A DNA stretch of 64,000 nucleotides from Ignavibacteria bacterium (GTDB lineage: Bacteria > Bacteroidota > Ignavibacteria > Ch128b): NCBI GenBank assembly GCA_013177855.1, contig JABLYA010000001.1:915231-979230 (forward strand). The letters are read 5' to 3'. Position numbers and translations under genes: made by a program. Positions 3,299-17,709 of the stretch are shown piece after piece. The notes beneath the pieces were generated by a model. The model saw only the letters and a list, made by a program, of their open reading frames with translations. It did no database searches and was not told where the DNA came from. Within the stretch, counting starts at the first letter, position 1; each line of letters starts with the position of its first letter.

Positions 3299-5530
3299 TC
3301 ATTTTATTTTGGATTCAAAAACCCCATTCCAATCGTCAGGTGGCGGGGAATTTAAAAATTCAAAACATCTGTCAATAAAAACTCGAGTGGGATAATCATC
3401 GGGATTTACGAGAAGAACTTTTTCAAATTCTTCAATTGCCCTACTAAACATTTTTTCACGATATAAATTCAATCCAGTTTCGAAGTATTCTATAAGTTTC
3501 AATATTTCTTTTTGGTCATCATTCGAAAAGATTAATCCTTCTTTTAAATCAATAAGTTCAAAGATCCTGACAGGAATAGTTTTACCTTTTACAAGTATTA
3601 AATCAAGTTCACGAGCAATTACTCTATCTTTGATTTTATTATAAATGCTTTCACTTATAACTATATCGGTTCCATAAATTTTATTGATTCCTTCAAGCCT
3701 TGATGCAAGATTTACGTTATCACCCATCACGGTATAATCAAATTTTTTCTTACCTCCCATATTACCGACAATCATTTCACCTGAATTTATTCCAATTCGA
3801 ATACTAAATTCCTGACCAATGATAGCTTTCCAATCAAGCTTTAGTTCGTTTACTTTCTTTTTCATCTTAAGCGCACACAGTGCAGAATTGAAATGATGTT
3901 CTGGATCATCAAGGGGTGCATTCCAGAAAGCCATTATTGCATCACCTTCAAACTTATCCAGAGTTCCATTGGTTTCAAAAATTATTTCAGTCATCTCATC
4001 AAAGTAATGATTTAGAAGCTCAACTAAAGTTTCTGGATCTATTTTCTCTGAAATTGTTGTAAAGTTTGCCAGATCAGAAAAGAGAACTGACATTTCTTTT
4101 CTTATTCCACCGAGTTTTAATTTCTCAGGGTGCACAACAAGTTCATCGACAAGTTTAGGATTCAAGTACTGACTGAACATAGCTTTTATGATTAATTTTT
4201 GTTTTCTCTCTTTTAGATAGTTTGAAACTGAACTAACTGTGTATGCACTTACTACCGCCAGAGCAGGTGGAATAAACATCCTGATTAAATGGAGTTTTAA
4301 AAATAGATAATAATAAATTTCATAGATACCGACGATAAATAAAATTAAAATCAAAAAGTTTATTAACTCACCAATTAGACTGGTCTTAAATTTAATCGAA
4401 CGTATAAATTCGAATAAATTCATACAAAGAAAAATTAAAACAAAAATTATGGCAAATCTCACCGTTAATGAACCGCGATGTAGAAAATTTTTATCAAGTA
4501 TCATTTGAACAACATTAGCGTGAACTTCAACTCCAAACATCAAATTTCCAGAAATGGATTTACTTTCTTTCGGTGCAATACTCACGGGAAATAGATCTTT
4601 ATCCTCTGGTTCAATAGAACCAATTAAAACAACTTTATTTCTAAAAATATCTGAATACAATAATCCAGTTAATGAGTCATTAAAAGTATTAATGTCTACT
4701 CCTGTCTCAAGTTCTGTCAAAGTTTGGAATTTTGAATCATCAATTATATCGATAAAATTGATCGTCTTGAATGTGCCCGAAGGTCCATAAAAATTTATTA
4801 AAAATGAGTTTGATGTAAATTCAGGGATTTTGAAGAAACCATAATCAAAAGATTTTTCAATCTTTTGGGGAGTAAAAAACATATCTAGATTATAGTAACG
4901 ATTAATAACTGCCAGAGAGAATGTTGGTATTTTAGTTTTCGTTCTTGCGTCAAAGTAATAAGGAAAATATCGTCTTAAGACTCCATCATCATCTGGCAAA
5001 ACATTGACAATCCCGATAGAAGAATCACTTTTTAAATAAACATTACCAAAATTTTGTCTTGGAGATTCTTCTGCTTCATATCGCCAATCGAATTGTTCAA
5101 TTTTTCCAGCAAGGATAACATTTTTATATTTCTTAATTACACTTACCAGAGCGCTGTCATTCTTTTTTGAATATTTATCAAATTCGTTGAAAAGCAAATC
5201 AATCCCAATAACTTTCGCACCAGCTTTATTTAAATTTTCAATCGCTTTAGCAAATAAATTTCTTGGAAGAGGCCAAACATTAAATGGTGGTGGAAGTTCA
5301 TTTAGTGTCTCGTTGGAAATTCCAATGATTATCACATCAAGGGAATCGGGATTATTGATAATTCCCCTCCGATTAAAATTTAAATCAATAATCTTGTTTT
5401 CGAGTGATGTAAAAGGTTTGAAATTAATTATTTCTGACGAAGAAAAAATAAAAATCAATAGAGCAAAAATTATTGAAGAAACTAGATGATATTTATCTTG
5501 ACCAAAATATTTCTGAATCTTATTCAGCAT
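3299..5530 (-). CDS. CHASE2-domain class III adenylate cyclase
   Basis: 743 residues. After an N-terminal membrane helix (about 15-33) comes an extracytoplasmic CHASE2 sensor region (about 40-330, with the DVIIIGI...LPRNLFAKAIENLNKAGAKVIGIDLLF core), three further membrane helices (about 350-440), then a class III nucleotide cyclase domain (about 465-660). The two metal-binding aspartates are in FSDLANFT and KFEGDAIMAFW. The Lys in LDKFEGD and the Thr in DYTVMGDNVNLASRLE sit where adenine is recognised, so ATP is the likely substrate and cAMP the product. The C-terminal 80 residues look like a TPR-type helical hairpin. It would convert a periplasmic signal into cAMP. CHASE2 cyclases often partner FecR-domain proteins; one lies at 53856-54554, but is not adjacent. 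Confidence 0.88.
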   Translation of the reverse strand: MLNKIQKYFGQDKYHLVSSIIFALLIFIFSSSEIINFKPFTSLENKIIDLNFNRRGIINNPDSLDVIIIGISNETLNELPPPFNVWPLPRNLFAKAIENLNKAGAKVIGIDLLFNEFDKYSKKNDSALVSVIKKYKNVILAGKIEQFDWRYEAEESPRQNFGNVYLKSDSSIGIVNVLPDDDGVLRRYFPYYFDARTKTKIPTFSLAVINRYYNLDMFFTPQKIEKSFDYGFFKIPEFTSNSFLINFYGPSGTFKTINFIDIIDDSKFQTLTELETGVDINTFNDSLTGLLYSDIFRNKVVLIGSIEPEDKDLFPVSIAPKESKSISGNLMFGVEVHANVVQMILDKNFLHRGSLTVRFAIIFVLIFLCMNLFEFIRSIKFKTSLIGELINFLILILFIVGIYEIYYYLFLKLHLIRMFIPPALAVVSAYTVSSVSNYLKERKQKLIIKAMFSQYLNPKLVDELVVHPEKLKLGGIRKEMSVLFSDLANFTTISEKIDPETLVELLNHYFDEMTEIIFETNGTLDKFEGDAIMAFWNAPLDDPEHHFNSALCALKMKKKVNELKLDWKAIIGQEFSIRIGINSGEMIVGNMGGKKKFDYTVMGDNVNLASRLEGINKIYGTDIVISESIYNKIKDRVIARELDLILVKGKTIPVRIFELIDLKEGLIFSNDDQKEILKLIEYFETGLNLYREKMFSRAIEEFEKVLLVNPDDYPTRVFIDRCFEFLNSPPPDDWNGVFESKIK

Positions 5531-7814: not shown

Positions 7815-7930
7815 GCATTTTAAAATTCCTCACTTTATCTACCATTTTTTTAGTAGCTGCAAACAGCATTAATTAAACAGACTGTTAGACGTTTTGAAAA
7901 TATCATTATAATTTGATAATTTTGGATTGA

Positions 7931-7946
7931 ATATTGTATACAATAT
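7931..7946. promoter_or_regulatory. Palindromic operator in the GntR gene promoter
   Basis: Perfect 16-bp palindrome ATATTGTATACAATAT, ending 12 nt before the start codon of the FadR-type regulator. Its core TTGTATACAA contains the half-sites GT and AC seen in FCD-domain GntR operators. It lies between a TTG (7927-7929) and a TATAAT (7951-7956), so binding would block the promoter. Autoregulation and control of the following catabolic genes is inferred. Confidence 0.65.
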
Positions 7947-7958
7947 ACAGTATAATTT

Positions 7959-8654
7959 ATGAATGAAAATTCACAAGTAAACATTTCATTAAATCTCGAA
8001 GACTTAAAACCACTTAGAGATAAGATCGCCTCTTCAATAAGAGAATCAATACTTACTGGTAAATTGAAACCTGGCGAACGATTGATGGAATTAGACCTTG
8101 CCAATCAACTTGGGATCAGTCGTACACCAGTTAGAGAAGCATTTCTTCAGCTCGAATCCGAAGGTTTCGTTCAAGTGATTCCACGAAAAGGAGCTGTTGT
8201 AACTGAAACTTCTTTTAATGATGCTAAAGAAACTTATGAAATTAAAAGCGTTCTTGAGGGACTTGCCGCTAAACTTGCAACCTCATTTTTAACTGAAGAA
8301 CAAATTGACGAACTCGTAGAATTAAACAATCAGATGAAGAAAATCTCAAAAACAAAAGAAAAAGATTATCAAAAGTTTTTACAGCTTAACTCAAAATTTC
8401 ACAAAATAATTAACGAAAGCTGCGGCAATTCAAAACTTATAAAATTAATCCATAACCTGCGACATCAAACTTTCCGCTATAACTATTTATTCCTTTCTCT
8501 TATTTCCCATCTTGAACATTCCGTTCAAGAGCATGAAAAAATAATTATGGCTATAAAAAAACGAAATCAAAATCTGGTTGAAGAACTGGTCAAAAGGCAT
8601 AATGAAAACGCAAAAGAAGCATTAATCAAGTTTATTAAAAACAAAAATCCATAA
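7959..8654 (+). CDS. GntR-family regulator (FadR subfamily, FCD domain)
   Basis: 231 residues. An N-terminal winged helix (about 18-82) carries the GntR signature GERLMELDLANQLGISRTPVREAF; an all-helical FCD ligand domain (about 90-225) follows, with the three histidines that usually bind a metal at 148 (KFHKI), 192 (QEHEK) and 214 (KRHNEN). Such regulators sense small acids or amino-acid metabolites. The start ATG lies only 2 nt after a TATAAT box and has no Shine-Dalgarno, so the mRNA may be leaderless or nearly so. A perfect palindrome just upstream is the likely operator. It precedes the amino-acid catabolic genes with 17 nt spacing, so it probably controls that pathway. Confidence 0.88.
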   Translation: MNENSQVNISLNLEDLKPLRDKIASSIRESILTGKLKPGERLMELDLANQLGISRTPVREAFLQLESEGFVQVIPRKGAVVTETSFNDAKETYEIKSVLEGLAAKLATSFLTEEQIDELVELNNQMKKISKTKEKDYQKFLQLNSKFHKIINESCGNSKLIKLIHNLRHQTFRYNYLFLSLISHLEHSVQEHEKIIMAIKKRNQNLVEELVKRHNENAKEALIKFIKNKNP

Positions 8655-8671
8655 AACCATAGAGGTGAGGT

Positions 8672-9595
8672 ATGAGCAAAATTAAAGTTGCTCTTGTGGG
8701 GTTTGGTAATGTTGGATGCATGGCTTTAGATGCAATTACAAATGAACCTGATATGGAGCTCGCAGGAATTGTCGAAATTCAGAATATTGAGAAAATAAGA
8801 TCGACACTGACTCCACAAAAATGTTGTCAATTCGGGAAAACCAAAATTGTTAGTGATGTCCGCGATCTTGATGAAGTTGATGTTGCTTTAATTTGTGCTC
8901 CATCGAGAAAAGTAAAGGAAATTGTATCACAATATTTAAGGTTTGGAATCAACACAGTTGATAGTTTTGATATACATTCTGAAATTCCTCAACTAAGAAA
9001 ATATCTTGATCCAATAGCAAAAGAAAACAACAAAGTTTCAATTATTTCAGCTGGCTGGGATCCTGGAATTGATTCGGTAATTCGCGGTTTATTTTTGACA
9101 ATGGCGCCAAGAGGGATCACTCACACCAATTTCGGTCCCGGTATGTCAATGGGACACACTTGCGCAGTAAAGGAAATTCCAGGTGTAAAAAATGCGCTTT
9201 CAATTACAGTACCTGCTGGAATGGGAATTCATCGCAGAATGGTCTATGTAGAACTTGAACCCGACGCTAACTTTGATGAAGTTGAAAAAGCAATTAAAAC
9301 TGATCCTTATTTTATCAAAGACAGAACCTATGTTTTTCAAGTTGATGATGTTCAAAAACTAATTGATATGGGTCACGGTGTCGTGATGGAAAGGAAGGGT
9401 GTCTCTGGTGCAACTCACAATCAAATCTTCAAATTCGAAATGAGAATTAATAACCCAGCACTGACGGGACAGATAATGGTTTCGGCTGCAAGAGCAGCAA
9501 TGAAACAAAGACCGGGATGTTATACTATGATTGAAGTTCCTGTTATCGATTTCCTTTATGGCGAACTCGAAGATTTTATACAAACTTTAGTTTAA
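8672..9595 (+). CDS. meso-Diaminopimelate-dehydrogenase-like amino-acid dehydrogenase
   Basis: 307 residues with ribosome site GAGGTGAGGT. An N-terminal Rossmann fold (VALVGFGNVG, residues 5-14) binds NAD(P). The family pattern of meso-diaminopimelate dehydrogenase is then followed closely: VDSFDIHSEIP, SAGWDPGIDSVIR, FGPGMSMGHTCAVKEIPGV, and a basic IHRRMVYVEL segment in the substrate pocket. The family oxidatively deaminates a D-configured amino-acid centre, releasing ammonia. A biosynthetic role in lysine synthesis is possible, but the position between a GntR regulator and a B12 mutase operon argues that it oxidises the amine produced by the mutase, the step done by Ord or Kdd in ornithine and lysine fermentation. 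Substrate unknown. Confidence 0.75.
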   Translation: MSKIKVALVGFGNVGCMALDAITNEPDMELAGIVEIQNIEKIRSTLTPQKCCQFGKTKIVSDVRDLDEVDVALICAPSRKVKEIVSQYLRFGINTVDSFDIHSEIPQLRKYLDPIAKENNKVSIISAGWDPGIDSVIRGLFLTMAPRGITHTNFGPGMSMGHTCAVKEIPGVKNALSITVPAGMGIHRRMVYVELEPDANFDEVEKAIKTDPYFIKDRTYVFQVDDVQKLIDMGHGVVMERKGVSGATHNQIFKFEMRINNPALTGQIMVSAARAAMKQRPGCYTMIEVPVIDFLYGELEDFIQTLV

Positions 9596-9609
9596 TTAAA
9601 GGTGAAATT

Positions 9610-10041
9610 ATGTCCGACCCTTACTCAAGAAATTTAATTCAAAAAGATTTTTATTTCAGCAAAACGGAGATAAAAGGAAAATTTGTAGTCGTACTTGATG
9701 GTAAATTGGAAAATCGTGCATTGAATGTGATACCTCAAATGTCTCGTGCTTTCCCACAAAATTCAATCATAGAATTAATAGGAACAGACGAAGAAAATAT
9801 TCAGCAAGGCTCAATCGTTAATAAAATTGCATACATAGGTTTTGTTGAACTTTTAAATGGAGGAGTTTTACTTGTCGGTGACAGAATTTTATGGAATGAT
9901 AAAGAAATTGGAGTGATAGCAGGATTTGATGATACTCATATGCCTAACCATCAAAATGTAATTGTGAAGATGAAAGAAAGAATTTCAGGGAAAGAATTTG
10001 GAATAAAACTAAACGATCAAATTACACTTCCAGGATTTTAA
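9610..10041 (+). CDS. Unknown beta-rich protein of the aminomutase cluster
   Basis: 143 residues, start supported by AAAGGTGAAATT upstream. I do not recognise the family. It has no signal peptide, no cysteine and no membrane segment. The pattern is of alternating short strands (GKFVVVLDGKL, GSIVNKIAYIGFVELLNGGVLLVGDRILW, EIGVIAGFDDTHMPNHQNVIVKM), suggesting a small beta-barrel; the conserved-looking FDDTHMPNHQN carries two His. A very loose resemblance to the small OrtA subunit of 2-amino-4-oxopentanoate thiolase (a GD...G...H pattern) can be seen but is not convincing. It lies 14 nt after the dehydrogenase and 29 nt before the PLP enzyme, so it is surely co-transcribed. Confidence 0.7.
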   Translation: MSDPYSRNLIQKDFYFSKTEIKGKFVVVLDGKLENRALNVIPQMSRAFPQNSIIELIGTDEENIQQGSIVNKIAYIGFVELLNGGVLLVGDRILWNDKEIGVIAGFDDTHMPNHQNVIVKMKERISGKEFGIKLNDQITLPGF

Positions 10042-10070
10042 AAAAGAAATAAATGAAAGGACAAAGAACA

Positions 10071-11537
10071 ATGGCAAAGCCTAGATTTAAATTTGAAATG
10101 TATAAAAGACTTCAGCAAAGAATCCCTCAAATTTATGCTGACGCAAAAAAGGCAGCTGAAAAACTAAATATTCCCAGTGAATTAAAAGGAGCCTTCGGTT
10201 TAACCGGCGCAATTTCAGGTTGTCCCTCACCTTTGAGAGATGACATTGAACATTTTCTTGCACAAGAATCAAAGAAAGTAGTTCCTCTCTCAGTTTACGT
10301 TGAAGAAATTCGAGCGATTATCAAAGAAGTTTACGGAGATGAATTTGACGCAGCACCAGTTAATACTTGCGAAGGAGGCCTCTGGATTACATTTGATACT
10401 TTGTTTACTCCACCAATGCAAGGCCGCGGTGATAATTACAGAACAAGATACATCGCTCCACTCGAACGACATATTCATCATCAGGCTGGATATGGAAGAC
10501 CATTTCCACCAAAATATAAAGACATCTTAGCTGACAGAGGCTGTACAGCTGGTGAACTTGGATTTTACGGTAAAAGACAAAACAACCTTGATACAGTTTT
10601 TGTCCCACTTGAAGGTGCAAAATACCCTGTGCATGGAATTAATTATCATCCTGTCCCGCTATTAAAAAATGTTGATGTTGAAGCTTCGTTGAAAAAAATT
10701 GAAGAAGTAGCTGAAAGACATCAAACTTTACTTTCGGGATTCGCATCTCTTGGTTACGACACACCCGGCTACGGTTATGGCGATAAAGATGAAAATGGAA
10801 TACCAAAGCTTCAAAAAGGAATCGCTCAAATCGCCAAAAAATACAATGTACCTTATGTAATTGATAATGCCTGGGGAATTCCAATAATTGGTAATAATAT
10901 TAAACTAATCGATGCTGATGTGATGATTTACAGTATGGACAAAGCAACAGGTTCTGCAACATCAGGATTGATAATTGGAAAAGAAGAAGTAATGGTGCCT
11001 ATTCGTAGAGCTCTCGGTTATCACGGCAATCGATATGGTACAACGGCATCTTATGGAAAAGCTGCTTATGTAACAATGGATCCAGGTAAAGAAGGATTAT
11101 GTGGTCAACTCGCTGCTCTTAGAGCTCTTAAAGAAAAACCTGAAATCATCAAAAAGCCAATTGACGATTTATATGAAATAGTTGTTGATGAGTTTTCCAG
11201 AATTGACGAACGAATTCGCAATTACTTCGAGATTTATAAGAGTTATAATTCCGGAGCAATTGAAGTCAATTATGAGGAAAGCTGGGAAAGTGGAAAACTC
11301 GGTATCCCAATTTTTACAATTGAAGATATGTATTCTGGTTCAAACTTATTCCAGGATGGATTAACTCAGATGGGAATTATTCCAACAATTGGATATGATG
11401 CGAATATCTTCATTTCTCCAGGATTAGGAACTACAGATAACAATGGTCAAATTATCGAAGAAAGAGCTCGAATGGTTGTTCGTGGATTGGTAATGTTAAT
11501 CGAAATAGTCTGCGAGCATGCTGGAATATTTGAGTAA
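10071..11537 (+). CDS. Fold-type-I PLP-dependent enzyme of the aminomutase cluster
   Basis: 488 residues. I chose the ATG at 10071 because GAAAGG lies 10 nt upstream; an in-frame ATG at 10053 has no ribosome site. The PLP site is readable: PYVIDNAWG with Asp265 for the pyridine nitrogen and YSMDKATGSATSG with Lys291 as the Schiff-base lysine. The SMDK context recalls SepSecS/SelA-type and class V aminotransferase-like enzymes rather than transaminases proper. Other marked segments are GLTGAISGCPSP near the N-terminus, EGGLWITFDTLF, and RRALGYHGNRYG after the lysine. The reaction is unknown; in this operon a racemase, lyase or beta-elimination step on the mutase substrate or product is plausible. 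No named family assigned. Confidence 0.75.
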   Translation: MAKPRFKFEMYKRLQQRIPQIYADAKKAAEKLNIPSELKGAFGLTGAISGCPSPLRDDIEHFLAQESKKVVPLSVYVEEIRAIIKEVYGDEFDAAPVNTCEGGLWITFDTLFTPPMQGRGDNYRTRYIAPLERHIHHQAGYGRPFPPKYKDILADRGCTAGELGFYGKRQNNLDTVFVPLEGAKYPVHGINYHPVPLLKNVDVEASLKKIEEVAERHQTLLSGFASLGYDTPGYGYGDKDENGIPKLQKGIAQIAKKYNVPYVIDNAWGIPIIGNNIKLIDADVMIYSMDKATGSATSGLIIGKEEVMVPIRRALGYHGNRYGTTASYGKAAYVTMDPGKEGLCGQLAALRALKEKPEIIKKPIDDLYEIVVDEFSRIDERIRNYFEIYKSYNSGAIEVNYEESWESGKLGIPIFTIEDMYSGSNLFQDGLTQMGIIPTIGYDANIFISPGLGTTDNNGQIIEERARMVVRGLVMLIEIVCEHAGIFE

Positions 11538-11561
11538 AAGGATATTCGATATTTTCTCTAA

Positions 11562-11594
11562 GCTGCCGTACTTACTTAGCTACGGCAGCCCTTT
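11562..11594 (+). terminator. Hairpin between the PLP-enzyme gene and the mutase genes
   Basis: Perfect 9-bp inverted repeat GCTGCCGTA (11562-11570) and TACGGCAGC (11581-11589), 10-nt loop, followed by a weak T stretch (CCTTTATAATTT). It could be a terminator or an RNA-stabilising or attenuating hairpin inside a longer operon. Confidence 0.55.
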
Positions 11595-11660
11595 ATAATT
11601 TGAAATTTTTTATCAGACGCATAAAGTTCACAAAATTTTTCAGAATGATGGTCAATCTTT

Positions 11661-11683
11661 AGGTTGCTTAATTTAATCAACCT
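11661..11683. promoter_or_regulatory. Inverted repeat upstream of the mutase genes
   Basis: AGGTTG (11661-11666) and CAACCT (11678-11683) flank an AT-rich 11-nt centre, 30 nt before the 79-codon gene. The TGTATTTG directly after it resembles a Bacteroidota -7 element, but the spacing to TTG is short. It is a candidate operator or promoter for the mutase genes; weak evidence. Confidence 0.3.
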
Positions 11684-11712
11684 GTATTTGAAAATAATAT
11701 AAAGGTAAAATT

Positions 11713-11952
11713 ATGAATTCAGCTCTTGATCATATTTTAGATGCTATTGACATTGAAACATATCTTGTTTGCAGCGACGAGAATGAAGGAAAAAATCTTG
11801 CCCTTCAACTCGGCAAAGAATTAAATCTTGGTGAAATTGATATAATGTATCAGGAGTTTGATGGTTACGGTATCAGAGTTCGTCTTCGAAAATACATTTA
11901 CAAACCTGGAAATCATTATAAATATCTGACCAATAAAAATTCTGAACTGTGA
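11713..11952 (+). CDS. Small protein resembling the OraE/KamE dimerisation domain
   Basis: 79 residues with ribosome site AAAGGTAAAATT. Its pattern, NEGKNLALQLGKELNLGEIDIMYQ followed by a strand IRVRLRKYI, resembles the segment that precedes the B12 domain in lysine 5,6-aminomutase beta subunit (KamE) and lies inside ornithine 4,5-aminomutase (OraE), the so-called OAM dimerisation domain. This is judged from remembered family sequences, not a search. Here it would be a free-standing subunit rather than fused. The next gene, encoding a B12-domain mutase, begins 2 nt after its stop (an alternative GTG overlaps it by 4 nt), so the two are translated together and probably form one enzyme. Confidence 0.5.
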   Translation: MNSALDHILDAIDIETYLVCSDENEGKNLALQLGKELNLGEIDIMYQEFDGYGIRVRLRKYIYKPGNHYKYLTNKNSEL

Positions 11953-11954
11953 AA

Positions 11955-13760
11955 ATGAAAAAACGAATTTTATGTGTACCTCTCGATCCTGTTCACGATG
12001 TTGGAATTAAAATTATTAAAAATGAACTTGACAAGAGAGGTTATTTAACGGAACTTCTCCCGCCCGATTTACCACTCGAATCGATCGTGAAAATTGCTGC
12101 TCAGGGAAATTATGATTTCATTCTGGTGAGTAGAACAATTGGTTATGGTGTTGCTGAAATGTTGGCTCGCTTTATTGATATGCTTGATGCCGCAGGAGTA
12201 AGAGAAAAATCTAAGATTGTTATTGGCGGTAAACCAATTACTCCTGAATTGGCCGCTGAGCTCGGTTTTGATAAAGGTTTCGGTGAACACTCCACAATCG
12301 AAGATTTAATTTCTTACATCGAAGGTAAAGAGGTCTCTGCTAAAATCACTGGTCTTAATCGAAATAAAAAAGATATTACATCAAAATATGATTACAAATT
12401 TTTGAACAAAGAAATAGAAGAACTCTTAGAAATTATTACTGATAAATTTCTGAAATTTATTTCCAATAAAACTTCTGCTGGTATTGAGCGTGCAAAAATA
12501 CGCGAAGAAATATTCCAGACGGAAGATGAAGCAAAGAAAATCTCTCTGAAAGAAAAATACTTATCATACTGCGATACTGAAATTATCAGAAGTGTAAAAG
12601 ACAAGCATTTTATAAAAAATGTTCGGGAAGTTACTTCAGAAGAATTAGAATATTTGAAAAATTATCTGAGCCACCATCTTCCTCTGTATCCTAAAACAAT
12701 TCAACATAATGAAGAACAGCCAATTGTATTTAAGTTTCTAGGAAGTGGATGTCCTATAATGGATTTAATTCACGGAAAAATTTGCGAGCGTTATGGAATT
12801 AATGGATTTCTAATAATCAATCCATCGTGGGAAGCAAGGTATGAAGGATTGCTTGAAGGTTATCTGACACACGAAAATGACGGCACAATCACTTCGTTTG
12901 ATAATGTAAAATTAATTCGAGATAATCTTGATAAAAGCACATTGCTTTCAATCAGAGCACATCGTGGATTAAATACACCCGAGACTGTTTTAATTGCCGG
13001 CGAAGCAAATGCTGATCTTGTTAAAATAAATCTTGTGTATGGTTCGCTCGGTGCTGGAACTGATCCTTTACGACTTGCCGTCGATGGTGTTGAAGCAATA
13101 AAACTTGCAGCAAAATACAATCTTCCATTTGATATTCCAGGTAATGATGAGTTAAGTGGTGTCCCCGCTTATAAAACTCTCGCAGGACTTCTAATCAATT
13201 TGATGATTGGAATTAAATTAAATGCAAAGCCAATCTTAAAACCACTTTTCTGTTATGGTCCTCATATTGTCATCAATGATTTAATGAAACAAAATTTTAT
13301 TGATTACAACGCAGCAAAAATTTTTGCACTCAGACAAATAGTGAATGCACCAATTTGGCCCGGTGAACCAATTGCTTTTATGACTCAATCAGAAGAAAGA
13401 GTTCAATCAGCAAACTCAACTTCTTACCATGCGGCACTTGCTGCATCATTAAAAGTTGATGCAATAACAGTTGCGTCAACAGATGAAGCATATTCAAGAG
13501 GACCGATTGCAATAACTTCACGAATTGATACAATTAATGCCGTCTCAGATGCATTCAAGTTCATTGGTAATAGTGGCTTTCAACCCACTCCGCAGGCTCA
13601 AGAATTTACCGAGGATTTGATTAAAAAAATTACAAATATTTTGAAAGAAGTTTCTCAAAAAGAAAATCTTCCTCAAGCTATTTATGATGGAGTGCTCGGG
13701 AATAAAGAAGATGGGGCTTATCCAGGAATTTTTGGCAGAGGCACAGTTAAAGAAAAATGA
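11955..13760 (+). CDS. B12-dependent mutase: N-terminal cobalamin domain plus TIM barrel (aminomutase-like)
   Basis: 601 residues from ATG 11955; an in-frame GTG at 11949 is an alternative. Residues 1-120 are a cobalamin-binding Rossmann domain: DPVHDVGIKII gives the lower-ligand His14 and HxxG, with the Asp one place earlier than in canonical DxHxxG, and the domain ends KIVIGG...LGFDKGFGEHS. After a helical linker (about 130-240) a TIM barrel (about 250-560) includes ARYEGLLEG, SIRAHRGLNTPETV, VKINLVYGSLGAGTDPLRLAVDG and VASTDEAYSRGPIAITSRIDT. The last segment resembles the TPDEGRNVP region of OraE. OraE has TIM barrel then B12 domain; here the order is reversed. The lysine-bearing insertion that holds PLP in KamE/OraE seems absent. 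Reaction: adenosylcobalamin radical rearrangement of an amino acid, substrate unknown. Confidence 0.75.
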   Translation: MKKRILCVPLDPVHDVGIKIIKNELDKRGYLTELLPPDLPLESIVKIAAQGNYDFILVSRTIGYGVAEMLARFIDMLDAAGVREKSKIVIGGKPITPELAAELGFDKGFGEHSTIEDLISYIEGKEVSAKITGLNRNKKDITSKYDYKFLNKEIEELLEIITDKFLKFISNKTSAGIERAKIREEIFQTEDEAKKISLKEKYLSYCDTEIIRSVKDKHFIKNVREVTSEELEYLKNYLSHHLPLYPKTIQHNEEQPIVFKFLGSGCPIMDLIHGKICERYGINGFLIINPSWEARYEGLLEGYLTHENDGTITSFDNVKLIRDNLDKSTLLSIRAHRGLNTPETVLIAGEANADLVKINLVYGSLGAGTDPLRLAVDGVEAIKLAAKYNLPFDIPGNDELSGVPAYKTLAGLLINLMIGIKLNAKPILKPLFCYGPHIVINDLMKQNFIDYNAAKIFALRQIVNAPIWPGEPIAFMTQSEERVQSANSTSYHAALAASLKVDAITVASTDEAYSRGPIAITSRIDTINAVSDAFKFIGNSGFQPTPQAQEFTEDLIKKITNILKEVSQKENLPQAIYDGVLGNKEDGAYPGIFGRGTVKEK

Positions 13761-14800
13761 AAACTCTCGGAATAGTCGGTACCGCAAAGAATACTGGAAA
13801 AACCACTACCCTTTCTTACATTTTGAATGGATTTCAATCACAAAAATTAAAAGTTGCCGTAACTGGAATTGGTTACGATGGCGAAGAATTTGATAATATA
13901 ACCAACCTTCCAAAACCAAGAATTTTCTTCAAAGAAAATTCAGTAATTATCACTTCAGAAAAATGTATTCAATCATCGAAATTAGACTTTGAGTTAATTG
14001 AGAAAACTCCTTTCCGCACTGCTCTCGGGGAAATTCTAATTGTTCGTTTAATCGAAGCTGGAAAAGTTGTGATAGCTGGACCTAACACGACAAAAGGCTT
14101 AACGGAAATTAAATCTTTAATTGAAAGAAAAACTGACACAGAATTGTTAATCGTTGATGGCTCTCTCAATCGAATTACACCTATGTCGATTGTCGATAGA
14201 TTAATCTTTACAACAGGTGCTTCGAGAAGTCAAAACATAGATCAGCTTGTAAAAGAAATGATAATTATCGAAAGGCTTTTTAATTATCCAAAATATTCCT
14301 TTGACTTTTTTCAAGGTGAATTTGTTCAGATTTCAACTTTGAACGGATTGATAAAATTAAATCTTAACTCACTTGTTGATAAGAGTGATTTTTTGGAAAT
14401 CAAAAAATTTTTAGACCACTCTGCCGACAAAATTTTTATCCCCGGCTTAACTTCCACAAAAATTCTTATTGAATTAATTGATACGATTAAATTAAGCTTG
14501 AATAGACCAATCCAATTAATTTTTTATTCTCCTCTACAGATCTTATTGACCGATGATCTTTTTAAAATTTCTGAATTAATCGAAAGATGTGAAATAAACA
14601 AAATTGATATAGCTTACATTTACAAACCAGAACTTGCAGCAATTACAATAAATCCATTTTATCCAAAATCTGAGAATTTTTCATTTAAACCAGCCTACAT
14701 AAATAAAGATGAATTATTTGAAAAAATGTCAACCAACCTCAGAACTCCTGTGTTCAATATTCTTGAAGCTAACGCAAATAAAATTTTTGAATTGATTTGA
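13757..14800 (+). CDS. P-loop NTPase, possible mutase reactivase
   Basis: 347 residues; its ATG overlaps the mutase stop (ATGA), so translation is coupled. The N-terminus is a clear nucleotide site: GIVGTAKNTGKTTTLSYIL (Walker A at about 8-16, of the MobB/SIMIBI kind), with TELLIVDGSLNR as probable Walker B region at about 130-140. The remainder is unfamiliar. B12-dependent mutases are inactivated during turnover and usually come with an ATP- or GTP-driven chaperone that swaps damaged cobalamin (MeaB/ArgK, MutL, diol dehydratase reactivase, KamB/KamC). Position and coupling suggest such a role here. That function is inference; the P-loop itself is seen directly. Confidence 0.7.
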   Translation: MKTLGIVGTAKNTGKTTTLSYILNGFQSQKLKVAVTGIGYDGEEFDNITNLPKPRIFFKENSVIITSEKCIQSSKLDFELIEKTPFRTALGEILIVRLIEAGKVVIAGPNTTKGLTEIKSLIERKTDTELLIVDGSLNRITPMSIVDRLIFTTGASRSQNIDQLVKEMIIIERLFNYPKYSFDFFQGEFVQISTLNGLIKLNLNSLVDKSDFLEIKKFLDHSADKIFIPGLTSTKILIELIDTIKLSLNRPIQLIFYSPLQILLTDDLFKISELIERCEINKIDIAYIYKPELAAITINPFYPKSENFSFKPAYINKDELFEKMSTNLRTPVFNILEANANKIFELI

Positions 14801-14849: not shown

Positions 14850-16220
14850 TCATACATAATCAAATTTTGCAGTGAAATGCCTTAAAACTGGAGCTTCCTC
14901 AATAATTTTCATTCCTCTTAATTTGTCTCTTTTTGCATATACTTCTTGAATAACTTCAATTACATAATCAATATGGCTTTGAGTGTACACTCTTCTTGGG
15001 ATAGCAAGTCGGACAAGTTCAAGTTTTGCAGGAATGAGTTTTCCATCTTTATCATATTTACCAAACATCACACTTCCAATTTCTACAGCACGAATTCCGC
15101 CTTCGAGATAAAGTTCACAAACAATTGATTGACCAGGATATTGTTCAGGTGGAATATGAGGAGCAAATCTTTTTGCATCGAGATAAATAGCGTGACCGCC
15201 CGGTGGTTCAAGAATTGGAACTCCGGATTGAACTAATTTCTCACCGAGATATTCAACTGAACGAATTCGATATTTCAAATAGTCTTCTTCTAAAACTTCT
15301 TCCAGACCTTGAGCGATTGCCTCAAGATCTCTTCCAGCAAGTCCGCCGTATGTTGGAAAACCTTCAGTTACTATCAAAACATTTCTACATTTCATTGCAA
15401 GTTCATCATCATTCATTGCAAGGAAACCGCCAATATTAACGAGTCCATCTTTTTTTGCGCTCATTGTGCATCCATCGGCATAAGAAAACATTTCTTGAGC
15501 AATCTCTAAGACTGATTTATTCTCGTAACCTTTTTCTCTCTTTTTGATAAAATATGCATTTTCAGCAAATCGACAGGCATCTAAGAAAAGTTTTAAGCCA
15601 TACTTGTCACAAACTTTCCTTGTCTGACGAATATTTTCCATTGAAACAGGTTGTCCTCCGCCAGAATTATTTGTAACAGTTAACATTACCAAAGGTATGT
15701 TCTCTGGCCCAACTTGATTAATAAATTTCTCAAGCTGTTCAATGTCCATATTACCTTTGAAATCAGCTCGAATTTCTGGATGAAGTCCAATTTCGTTTAA
15801 TAAATCAACTGCTTCCGAACCAACAAATTCGATGTTCGCTCTGGTTGTATCGAAATGTGTATTGCTTGGAAAATATTTTCCTTCTCCACCTAAAACACTA
15901 AATAAAATTTTTTCAGCTGCTCTTCCTTGATGAGTTGGAATAATGTGCTTAAAGCCGGTGATCTTTTTTACAACTCTTTCGAATCTAAAAAAGCTTTGTG
16001 AACCGGCATATGCTTCATCGCCTCTCATAATTCCAGCCCACTGCTCTGAACTCATTGCAGAAGTACCGCTGTCGGTCAATAAATCAATAATCACATCTCT
16101 TGAATGAATGTTAAAAGGATTGTAAAAAGCTTCTTTAAGAATTTTTTCCCTCTGTTCTCGCGTTGTAAAGCGGATAGTTTCAACAGATTTGATTTTGAAA
16201 GGTTCAATGATAGTTTTCAT
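14850..16220 (-). CDS. tnaA: Tryptophanase (tryptophan indole-lyase)
   Basis: 456 residues. The enzyme splits L-tryptophan into indole, pyruvate and ammonia with PLP. The family is shared with tyrosine phenol-lyase, and three positions decide: Asp124 in HFDTTR (Thr in the tyrosine enzyme, Asp in tryptophanase), Ile381 in GIRAVEIGS (Arg in the tyrosine enzyme), and His448 in RHFTAKF (Phe in the tyrosine enzyme, His in tryptophanase). EGFPTYGG also matches tryptophanase. The PLP lysine is Lys257 in SAKKD and the Asp is in LFLDACRF. The start is fixed by alignment of EPFKIKSVE with both families. It converges on the aminomutase operon, extending an amino-acid catabolic region. No TnaC-like leader peptide is visible; the promoter abuts the start codon. 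Confidence 0.92.
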   Translation of the reverse strand: MKTIIEPFKIKSVETIRFTTREQREKILKEAFYNPFNIHSRDVIIDLLTDSGTSAMSSEQWAGIMRGDEAYAGSQSFFRFERVVKKITGFKHIIPTHQGRAAEKILFSVLGGEGKYFPSNTHFDTTRANIEFVGSEAVDLLNEIGLHPEIRADFKGNMDIEQLEKFINQVGPENIPLVMLTVTNNSGGGQPVSMENIRQTRKVCDKYGLKLFLDACRFAENAYFIKKREKGYENKSVLEIAQEMFSYADGCTMSAKKDGLVNIGGFLAMNDDELAMKCRNVLIVTEGFPTYGGLAGRDLEAIAQGLEEVLEEDYLKYRIRSVEYLGEKLVQSGVPILEPPGGHAIYLDAKRFAPHIPPEQYPGQSIVCELYLEGGIRAVEIGSVMFGKYDKDGKLIPAKLELVRLAIPRRVYTQSHIDYVIEVIQEVYAKRDKLRGMKIIEEAPVLRHFTAKFDYV

Positions 16221-16255: not shown

Positions 16256-16350
16256 GAAAATACAAACCATTATTCAGAATAAATGGAAGAAATTAACCAC
16301 TGATAAACATCAACAATTTTTTTAACTTGCAAGAAATTTTGGAAAGAAAA

Positions 16351-17709
16351 ATGATAGATACTCACTGCCATTTATTTTTTGATGAACTTTACAATGACCT
16401 GGACAATGTTATCAGGGAAGCTAAAGAAGCTGGAATAAAATATTTCATTTGTCCTTCTACAAATCTTGAGACCGCAAAGAAAACACTCGAAATTGCCGAT
16501 GCATATCCGAAGGTTTATGCTGCAATTGGTGTCCATCCTCATGATACTTCAAACTTTGATGAAAATACTCTGATTGAATTAGAAAAACTATTAAGCCATC
16601 CAAAAGTTGTAGCAATCGGTGAAATAGGACTTGATTATTATTACGATTTTTCTCCAAAAGATAAACAGCAATTCGCTTTCAGAGAGCAATTGAAACTCGC
16701 AAAAAAATATAAACTTCCAGTTATCATACACAATAGAGATTCAAGCGAAGATCTAATGAAAATATTTGAAGAAGAAGCTGATGGAACACTTTACGGTCAA
16801 TTTCATTGTTTCAATGGTGATTACGAAATGGCTTATAGAATTGTTGAACTGAGATCATTTTTATCTTTTACAGGAAATATAACTTATCCTAAGAACGAAG
16901 AGCTAAGAAAAATTTTGAGTCGGATTGAACCTGAAAATCTTTTGCTTGAAACTGATTCACCTTTTATGTCCCCAGTTCCATTTCGAGGAAAAAAGAACAG
17001 GCCTGCTTATTTGAAATATACTGTTGAAAAAATCGCTGAAGTTCAAGGACTAACAGTTGATGACATAATTCGCTCTACCAATTTCAGCGTTTATAAACTT
17101 TTTAAGATTGGACAAATTCCAGAGGTTTCGTTTACCTATCAAATTGGTCGAGCTCTCTACATCAATGTGACCAATCGTTGTAATGCAGATTGCGTTTTTT
17201 GCGATCGAAAAGGTTATGCATCCGTTGTTGGATACAATCTCAAAATGCCGAAAAGTATGGAGCCACCAGCGGAAGTTTATATAAAAGAAATTGGTGATCC
17301 TAAAAATTATTCAGAGATAGTCTTTTGCGGATTTGGTGAGCCGACTATCCGTATGGACATTATCAAAGAAGTCGCAAAATATGTAAAAGAAAATGGCGGA
17401 AGAACAAGACTCAACACCGATGGCCACGGAAATTACATTAACAAACGAAACATCTTACCAGAACTTCAAGGTTTAATTGACTCAGTTTCAATTAGCTTGA
17501 ACACTGCAGATCCAGATCAATATGCAAGACTTATGCAGGTTGATAAATCTCTCTTTTATGAAATGGTTAATTTTACTAAAGAAGCTAAAAAATATATACC
17601 TGAAGTAGTTGTAACGATTGTTGATTTAAGAGAAGTAGATAAAGAAAAAGCTCGCAAATTTGCTGAGGAAGAATTAGGAGTAAAATTTAGAGCAAGAGAA
17701 TACTTCTGA
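16351..17709 (+). CDS. TatD-family hydrolase fused to a TatD-linked radical SAM domain
   Basis: 452 residues from ATG 16351, which has GGAAAG 5 nt upstream; an in-frame TTG at 16327 lies before that site and is rejected. Residues 1-255 are a complete TatD metal-dependent deoxyribonuclease/hydrolase: MIDTHCHL, GVHPHD, GEIGLDYYY, VIIHNRDS, HCFNG and ETDSPFM hold the metal ligands. From about 270 a radical SAM domain begins, with the iron-sulfur cysteines in NRCNADCVFC and the glycine-rich FCGFGEPT motif. The TatD-linked radical SAM family is known both as separate neighbours and as fusions; its substrate is not established. The stop is directly followed by the stop of the opposite-strand gene (0 nt gap). 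Confidence 0.88.
   Translation: MIDTHCHLFFDELYNDLDNVIREAKEAGIKYFICPSTNLETAKKTLEIADAYPKVYAAIGVHPHDTSNFDENTLIELEKLLSHPKVVAIGEIGLDYYYDFSPKDKQQFAFREQLKLAKKYKLPVIIHNRDSSEDLMKIFEEEADGTLYGQFHCFNGDYEMAYRIVELRSFLSFTGNITYPKNEELRKILSRIEPENLLLETDSPFMSPVPFRGKKNRPAYLKYTVEKIAEVQGLTVDDIIRSTNFSVYKLFKIGQIPEVSFTYQIGRALYINVTNRCNADCVFCDRKGYASVVGYNLKMPKSMEPPAEVYIKEIGDPKNYSEIVFCGFGEPTIRMDIIKEVAKYVKENGGRTRLNTDGHGNYINKRNILPELQGLIDSVSISLNTADPDQYARLMQVDKSLFYEMVNFTKEAKKYIPEVVVTIVDLREVDKEKARKFAEEELGVKFRAREYF

Follow-up and report, generated by a model that had tools for sequence, protein, structure and literature searches.

Catabolism of amino acids by way of a B12-dependent mutase is of a known kind. Described systems include D-lysine 5,6-aminomutase (KamDE, with the reactivase KamB), the ornithine pathway (OraS/OraE, Ord, and OrtA/OrtB), and glutamate mutase (MutE/MutS), which uses adenosylcobalamin (AdoCbl) and no pyridoxal 5′-phosphate (PLP). 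In lysine 5,6-aminomutase, PLP forms a Schiff base with Lys144, its phosphate is held by Arg184, Arg268, and Ser189 and its pyridine nitrogen by Ser238, Asn299 contacts its phenol oxygen, and Tyr263 stacks on the cofactor (PMC3958899). During the reaction, PLP binds the migrating nitrogen as an imine, which forms an azacyclopropylcarbinyl radical (PMC3958899). Here we discuss a seven-gene operon in a 64,000-nucleotide stretch of an Ignavibacteria bacterium genome (contig JABLYA010000001.1, positions 915,231 to 979,230; this whole stretch is referred to as the window). Its mutase is predicted to keep the aminomutase fold and to have lost the PLP site. With a probability of about 0.5, the operon is a dedicated, regulator-controlled unit that degrades meso-diaminopimelate (meso-DAP) from peptidoglycan by deamination, B12-dependent rearrangement, and cleavage by a PLP enzyme. 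There is a realistic chance that the enzymology here is of a new type. The seven genes are as follows.

7959-8654, + strand: FCD-family GntR regulator (PF07729, 83 bits; PF00392, 65 bits)
8672-9595, + strand: type II meso-DAP dehydrogenase-like enzyme (TIGR01921, 314.8 bits, cut-off 180.6; 61% identity to StDAPDH)
9610-10041, + strand: DUF6917 protein (PF21891, 147.6 bits)
10053-11537, + strand: fold-type-I PLP enzyme of a new family (fold-type-I matches, AlphaFold model, and Foldseek)
11713-11952, + strand: small protein of 79 amino acids (aa), no family match, placed by its position adjoining the mutase
11949-13760, + strand: AdoCbl-dependent mutase of 603 aa, N-terminal B12 domain followed by a TIM barrel
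13757-14800, + strand: KamB-type P-loop reactivase (NF052386, 210.8 bits, cut-off 210)

An earlier note on this stretch had listed seven consecutive genes at 7959-14800; the open reading frames (ORFs) are confirmed, all on the + strand, and the family searches match. The P-loop NTPase of that note is indeed a P-loop protein and is now recognizable as a KamB-type reactivase, with a homologue at locus L055 scoring 204 bits against NF052386, just under the cut-off. The gaps between successive ORFs are 17, 14, 11, 175, -4, and -4 bases. Hence, genes 1-4 are spaced by 11-17 bases, the 175-base gap precedes the 79-aa gene, and 4-base overlaps (79-aa/mutase and mutase/reactivase) make the last three genes translationally tight.

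Residues 1-135 of the mutase form a B12 domain that shares homology with KamE (hhalign E 4e-23) and OraE and has the cobalt-binding motif DxHxxG, whose histidine, H16, is present in 66/66 homologues covering the position. The C-terminal 360 residues (about 245-603) form a TIM barrel homologous to KamD, with a profile E value of 3e-6 by hmmsearch and of 5e-9 by hhalign, the hhalign probability being 95% or 85% depending on the settings. Its AlphaFold model (mean pLDDT 87) ranks lysine 5,6-aminomutase alpha first in Foldseek (8t0v_A, E 2e-18), followed by ornithine aminomutase and glutamate mutase (E 7e-10). In profile comparison, KamD and OraE resemble each other much more than either resembles this protein. 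By these sequence comparisons and the structural model, the family of lysine 5,6- and ornithine 4,5-aminomutases has a third, divergent branch in this mutase, whose two domains come in swapped order. The B12-TIM barrel mutase of the earlier note thus stands with respect to its two domains, and can be placed in the aminomutase family.

Residues were mapped onto lysine 5,6-aminomutase by profile alignment, which is best where motifs are dense. The position of the Schiff-base lysine (K144b, 11 residues after the cobalt-binding histidine) is leucine in 67/67 homologues. Among 68 homologues, R184 is replaced by Asn, Asp, or Cys, R268 by Ala or Gly, S189 by Ala or Val, and S238 by Arg, while the counterpart of N299 is Asp or Glu, with one Gln (67-68 homologues). 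The stacking tyrosine, Y263, is retained in 68/68 and is the sole PLP-contacting residue tested that stays. KamD, KamE, and OraE from the same phylum retain the canonical PLP motifs, i.e., the lysine, the arginines, and the serines. The barrel has invariant arginines of its own, including R336, R339, R375, and R484, and Arg339 occupies the position of the serine that contacts the pyridine nitrogen. Given the predicted loss of the PLP site, the chemistry of the mutase is probably not the standard aminomutase reaction.

Compared with KamDE/KamB, the locus shares the KamD-type barrel, the KamE-type B12 domain, and the adjoining KamB-type reactivase, but here the B12 domain is fused ahead of the barrel, and both the PLP lysine and the PLP phosphate site are missing. 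Kdd and Kce, which the earlier note did not see, have no family counterpart among the window genes, and none was seen among recurrent neighbors. The gene order of dehydrogenase, small protein, PLP enzyme, small protein, and B12 mutase resembles the ornithine pathway. The dehydrogenase is weakly similar to Ord (E 1e-5), although it is a DAP dehydrogenase (DAPDH), and OraE consists of a barrel followed by a C-terminal B12 domain, whereas the order is reversed here. The OraE model NF040743 scores no more than 32-34 bits (cut-off 800), over the B12 domain only. Assignment of the mutase to OraE or KamE by family model was therefore rejected, the matches being partial and confined to the B12 domain. 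Likewise, DUF6917 as OrtA, the PLP enzyme as OrtB, and the 79-aa protein as OraS were rejected by hhalign (probabilities of 0.05-0.2%, with OraS, OrtA, and OrtB references taken from Bacillota genomes), in agreement with the absence of OraS and OrtAB noted earlier. Glutamate mutase shares the use of AdoCbl, the lack of PLP, and the combination of TIM barrel and B12 Rossmann domain, but identity is 10%, the MutS match is limited to 16 bits, and the reactivase is of the KamB and not the GlmL type.

To assess conservation, contigs of GTDB genomes were scanned with the mutase alignment and genes labeled by BLAST. This gave 45 loci, which carry the PLP enzyme (40), the 79-aa protein (42), DUF6917 (37), the reactivase (37), the dehydrogenase (27), and the regulator (25); most absences are at contig ends or in more distant phyla. 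Within the class of the host, mutase and PLP enzyme occur in the identical 19 of 294 genomes, the mutase gene being interrupted by a contig end in two or three of the 19; the two genes, which the earlier note expected to go together, are thus not found apart. Of these 19 genomes, 18 have a dehydrogenase above cut-off and the 19th has a 72.6-bit fragment; among the others, 1/275 has one above cut-off (Fisher p 6e-29 with the fragment counted, for genomes that are not independent). The mutase is also present in about 28 of 299 genomes of Bacillota, the phylum containing a Halobacteroidaceae genome, where the 28 loci carry DUF6917 (26), the PLP enzyme (27), the 79-aa protein (26), and the reactivase (26). 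The core of DUF6917, PLP enzyme, small protein, mutase, and reactivase extends to metagenome-assembled genomes of Sumerlaeota, Omnitrophota, and Bacillota, and partly to Atribacteria. The same gene set hence recurs at 45 + 28 loci, the recurrent co-occurrence that the earlier note looked for, and the seven genes form a conserved unit far beyond chance. In two Bacillota genomes, G350 (L180/L190) and G392 (L182/L195), the whole mutase cluster is present twice, as divergent copies, which suggests two substrates or two conditions.

Five Bacillota genomes hold the cluster alongside canonical operons elsewhere in the genome: G585 has both the ornithine and the lysine mutase operon, G461 and G562 have the ornithine operon, and G424 and G428 the lysine operon. 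This coexistence is most simply explained by a third, different substrate, and the set is not orthologous to either pathway. What had been proposed as an undescribed amino acid catabolic operon thus holds as a conserved unit outside the known pathways, with a predicted catabolic role.

Meso-DAP is now the leading candidate for the substrate, which the earlier note left open. Over its full length, the dehydrogenase shares 61% identity with the characterized meso-DAP dehydrogenase of Symbiobacterium, StDAPDH (3wb9), and it retains the catalytic histidine; it differs in being confined to the mutase operon, apparently not for DAP synthesis. DapF serves DAP synthesis via LL-DAP and is present in 41/41 genomes of the class tested, the host included. 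Since DapF is present throughout and the dehydrogenase is nearly confined to genomes with the cluster, the latter is not a general enzyme of DAP synthesis. Clusters without it contain other deaminating enzymes. Sumerlaeota (L069) have a DapL-type aminotransferase, Atribacteria (L048) an HcnABC-like oxidase, and Bacillota a flavin adenine dinucleotide (FAD) oxidoreductase (25/28 loci) with RidA (16/28). Thus, four non-homologous deaminating enzymes, together with RidA, recur around one core. DapF lies in Atribacteria cluster L050, and neighbors of the Ignavibacteria loci include LysA (5 loci), LD-carboxypeptidase (4), asd (4), lysC (3), an amidase fused to a NamZ muramidase (3), an M14 carboxypeptidase (3), an amidohydrolase of the N-acyl-D-amino-acid-deacylase kind (3), and AmpG with NagK (1). 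Collectively, the identity of the dehydrogenase, the exchange of deaminating enzymes, and the DAP- and peptidoglycan-related neighbors point to meso-DAP from peptidoglycan as the most likely substrate, on circumstantial grounds.

Some further features of the Bacillota loci deserve mention. The FAD oxidoreductase is of a GidA-like family (L172-L198, e.g., L180:6330-7613), sometimes with two copies per locus, and may replace the DAP dehydrogenase there. A hydrophobic protein of 460-478 aa at 14/28 loci (L180:2243-3631 and 13238-14626; L193:5383-6780) is a candidate substrate transporter; the L180 copy has no Pfam or NCBIfam match. In Halobacteroidaceae, a second DAPDH-like gene stands beside a tryptophanase-like gene (L144:3988-8903, L146:1231-6205, and L148:3988-16187), together with genes for a C39-like peptidase, an amidohydrolase, BCCT-like transporters, a peptide ABC transporter, and a DppA-like D-aminopeptidase. 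This region is possibly a cluster for the utilization of D-amino acids or peptides.

The remaining proteins of the core belong to less familiar families. The PLP enzyme falls in no named family, and existing family models do not fit; its homologues begin at an internal methionine, position 10071, and the predicted PLP lysine is K297. Foldseek with its AlphaFold model gives SepCysS, SelA, and DgaE (D-glucosaminate-6-phosphate ammonia-lyase) as nearest folds, at about 12-15% identity. The surroundings of the PLP lysine are shared with these enzymes, but the enzyme is longer (488-494 aa) and has a long N-terminal region of its own. DUF6917, with the invariant motif GxDxTHxPNHxN, is the probable partner of the PLP enzyme; comparison with solved structures gave nothing credible, the match being a designed protein. 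The 79-aa gene adjoins the mutase at nearly all loci, and its product is probably a mutase subunit. Its similarity to the N-terminal domain of KamE is weak (hhalign E 7e-4, probability 10%), and it is perhaps the counterpart of that domain; matches to solved structures were at chance level only.

Together, these data lead to a proposal for the pathway, which is probably a route of DAP breakdown not described before. In the first step, the DAP dehydrogenase, whose family is strongly supported and whose substrate is presumed, would oxidatively deaminate the D-centre of DAP to L-2-amino-6-oxopimelate, a step that might elsewhere be taken by the DapL-type transaminase, the HcnABC-like oxidase, or the FAD oxidoreductase with RidA. 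2-Amino-6-oxopimelate spontaneously cyclizes to tetrahydrodipicolinate, a cyclic imine. In the second step, for which the enzyme class is supported by sequence and fold, the AdoCbl mutase with its 79-aa subunit would shift a group by one carbon without PLP, and the KamB-type reactivase would maintain its activity. The favored form of this step would be a 1,2-shift of the ring nitrogen from C2 to C3, with contraction of the ring, to give 3-amino-6-oxopimelate. Tetrahydrodipicolinate already carries the migrating nitrogen as an imine, and the radical logic of lysine 5,6-aminomutase discussed above could therefore run without PLP; a dicarboxylate ring would fit well with the retained tyrosine and with the invariant Arg339. 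In the third step, the PLP enzyme, together with DUF6917, would bind the shifted amino group as an aldimine and cleave the C4-C5 bond next to the ketone. The spacing of amine and ketone in 3-amino-6-oxopimelate is such that a PLP quinonoid can expel pyruvate enolate, which would leave 3-aminocrotonate; its hydrolysis, by RidA at loci that have it, would yield acetoacetate and ammonia. The role of the mutase, as in ornithine fermentation, would be to set two groups at a spacing that the PLP enzyme can cleave. The more specific proposal, that a PLP-free AdoCbl aminomutase in which the substrate imine replaces the PLP aldimine operates in the first dedicated DAP catabolic pathway, spread over several phyla, is tentative, and we hold it with clearly less confidence than the degradation of meso-DAP as such.

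Several observations weigh against this proposal. The profile alignment of the barrel with KamD is weak in places, and single matches such as N299/D400 could shift. Steps two and three rest on chemical reasoning and their products are proposals, and no recurrent gene for handling acetoacetate or pyruvate was found in the cluster. Moreover, DAP-linked neighbors are common in Ignavibacteria but sparse at the Bacillota loci, which show one DapF fragment, with a D-Ala-D-Ala carboxypeptidase nearby in related genomes; the substrate of the Bacillota cluster could differ. These neighbors are also drawn from related genomes and are not independent. Finally, a DapL that could supply LL-DAP was not found above cut-off in the host, where two aminotransferases score far below it.

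With the same substrate and order of steps, the mutase could act on the carbon skeleton. An oxalyl shift would convert 2-amino-6-oxopimelate to 2-amino-4-methyl-5-oxoadipate, and the PLP enzyme would then eliminate across C-beta/C-gamma to give aminoacrylate, equivalent to pyruvate and NH3, and 2-oxobutyrate. RidA suits an aminoacrylate product, carbon-skeleton mutases likewise lack a PLP site, glutamate mutase ranks directly behind the two aminomutases in Foldseek, and R336, R339, R375, and R484 suit a dicarboxylate. The nearest folds of the PLP enzyme do eliminations and are compatible with either a nitrogen shift or a carbon-skeleton rearrangement. However, in sequence and fold the mutase is nearer to KamD than to glutamate mutase, and the reactivase is KamB-like, which makes this version unlikely.

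Also unlikely is a PLP-free or otherwise unusual aminomutase pathway for lysine, ornithine, proline-type cyclic imines, or a D-amino acid, with a dehydrogenase of drifted specificity. Type II DAPDHs such as StDAPDH act more broadly on 2-keto acids (PMC7084900), the second dehydrogenase of Halobacteroidaceae sits with amidohydrolase, D-aminopeptidase-like, and tryptophanase-like genes, and L048 has amino-acid-oxidase-like and DapA-family genes. On the other hand, DapL-, DapF-, and LysA-type genes, LD-carboxypeptidase, and muramidase surround the clusters, and genomes with the canonical lysine or ornithine pathway hold the cluster too. Alternatively, the mutase could be an ordinary PLP-dependent aminomutase with the PLP lysine and phosphate site relocated within the barrel. 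There, K359 (68/68), K457, and K409 (both 67/68) are conserved, as is the stacking tyrosine, but the replacement of the phosphate arginines and serine, the pyridine-nitrogen serine, and the Schiff-base lysine in all homologues scored makes this quite improbable. That the operon serves DAP or lysine synthesis, with the dehydrogenase as an anabolic Ddh and the other genes as accessories, would accord with type II DAPDHs in biosynthetic settings in other Bacteroidota, with asd near four loci and lysC near three, and with a host lacking DapL above cut-off, but it is highly improbable and was already disfavored by the lack of a Ddh-type DAPDH above cut-off in about 93% of the class, DapF in 41/41 genomes, and the dedicated FCD regulator with its operator.

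A dedicated operon is also consistent with the region upstream of the regulator gene, where two elements are predicted.

7931-7946, no strand assigned: palindromic operator of the FCD-GntR type, ATATTGTATACAATAT, with the core TTGTATACAA at 7934-7943, just 5′ of the regulator gene
7927-7956, + strand: promoter-like hexamers TTGAAT-18-TATAAT (10/12 matches), overlapping the operator

The operator core is a single copy in the window, and is absent from 400 kb of the host genome sampled as consecutive 20-kb stretches. Of the 25 Ignavibacteria loci with the regulator, 14 have one copy, close to the beginning of the regulator gene. This pattern of the predicted operator fits an autoregulated, dedicated operon. 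The hexamers are weak evidence by themselves, since promoter-like sites are no commoner than chance in the region. No B12 riboswitch or other Rfam element was found in the window. An inverted repeat seen by eye, GCTGCCGTA...TACGGCAGC at 11560-11592, lies in the 175-base gap between the PLP and 79-aa genes; the terminator scan made no call for it, and it is perhaps an attenuator or processing site.

Downstream, a gene of the tryptophanase/tyrosine phenol-lyase family (14850-16220, - strand; NF009709, 713 bits) is convergent with the operon and was rejected as a member, as it does not adjoin the operon at other Ignavibacteria loci; it is related to the tryptophanase-like gene that accompanies the second DAPDH-like gene of Halobacteroidaceae. 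Other features of the window are a TatD-type DNase fused to a radical S-adenosylmethionine (SAM) domain in one ORF (16327-17709, + strand; PF01026 and PF04055) and a CHASE2 and adenylate/guanylate cyclase protein (3299-5530, - strand).

Bacterial peptidoglycan and microbial necromass both contain DAP as a major amino acid. In the literature searched, with most subscription journals lying outside it, no description was found of the cluster, DUF6917, orphan B12 mutases, or catabolism of the DAP carbon skeleton, nor did that literature yield an anaerobic route for this skeleton. Most of the clusters belong to uncultured lineages that are known through metagenomes (Ignavibacteria, Atribacteria, Sumerlaeota, Omnitrophota, and Halobacteroidaceae) and that may plausibly feed on necromass. 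The clusters also suggest functions for DUF6917, the new PLP family, and the new small subunit. If the proposal is correct, anaerobic and sediment bacteria from several phyla share a DAP pathway. Moreover, a third aminomutase branch without a PLP site would mean that this fold can do without PLP, and would offer a direct experimental handle on the mechanism of the radical shift.

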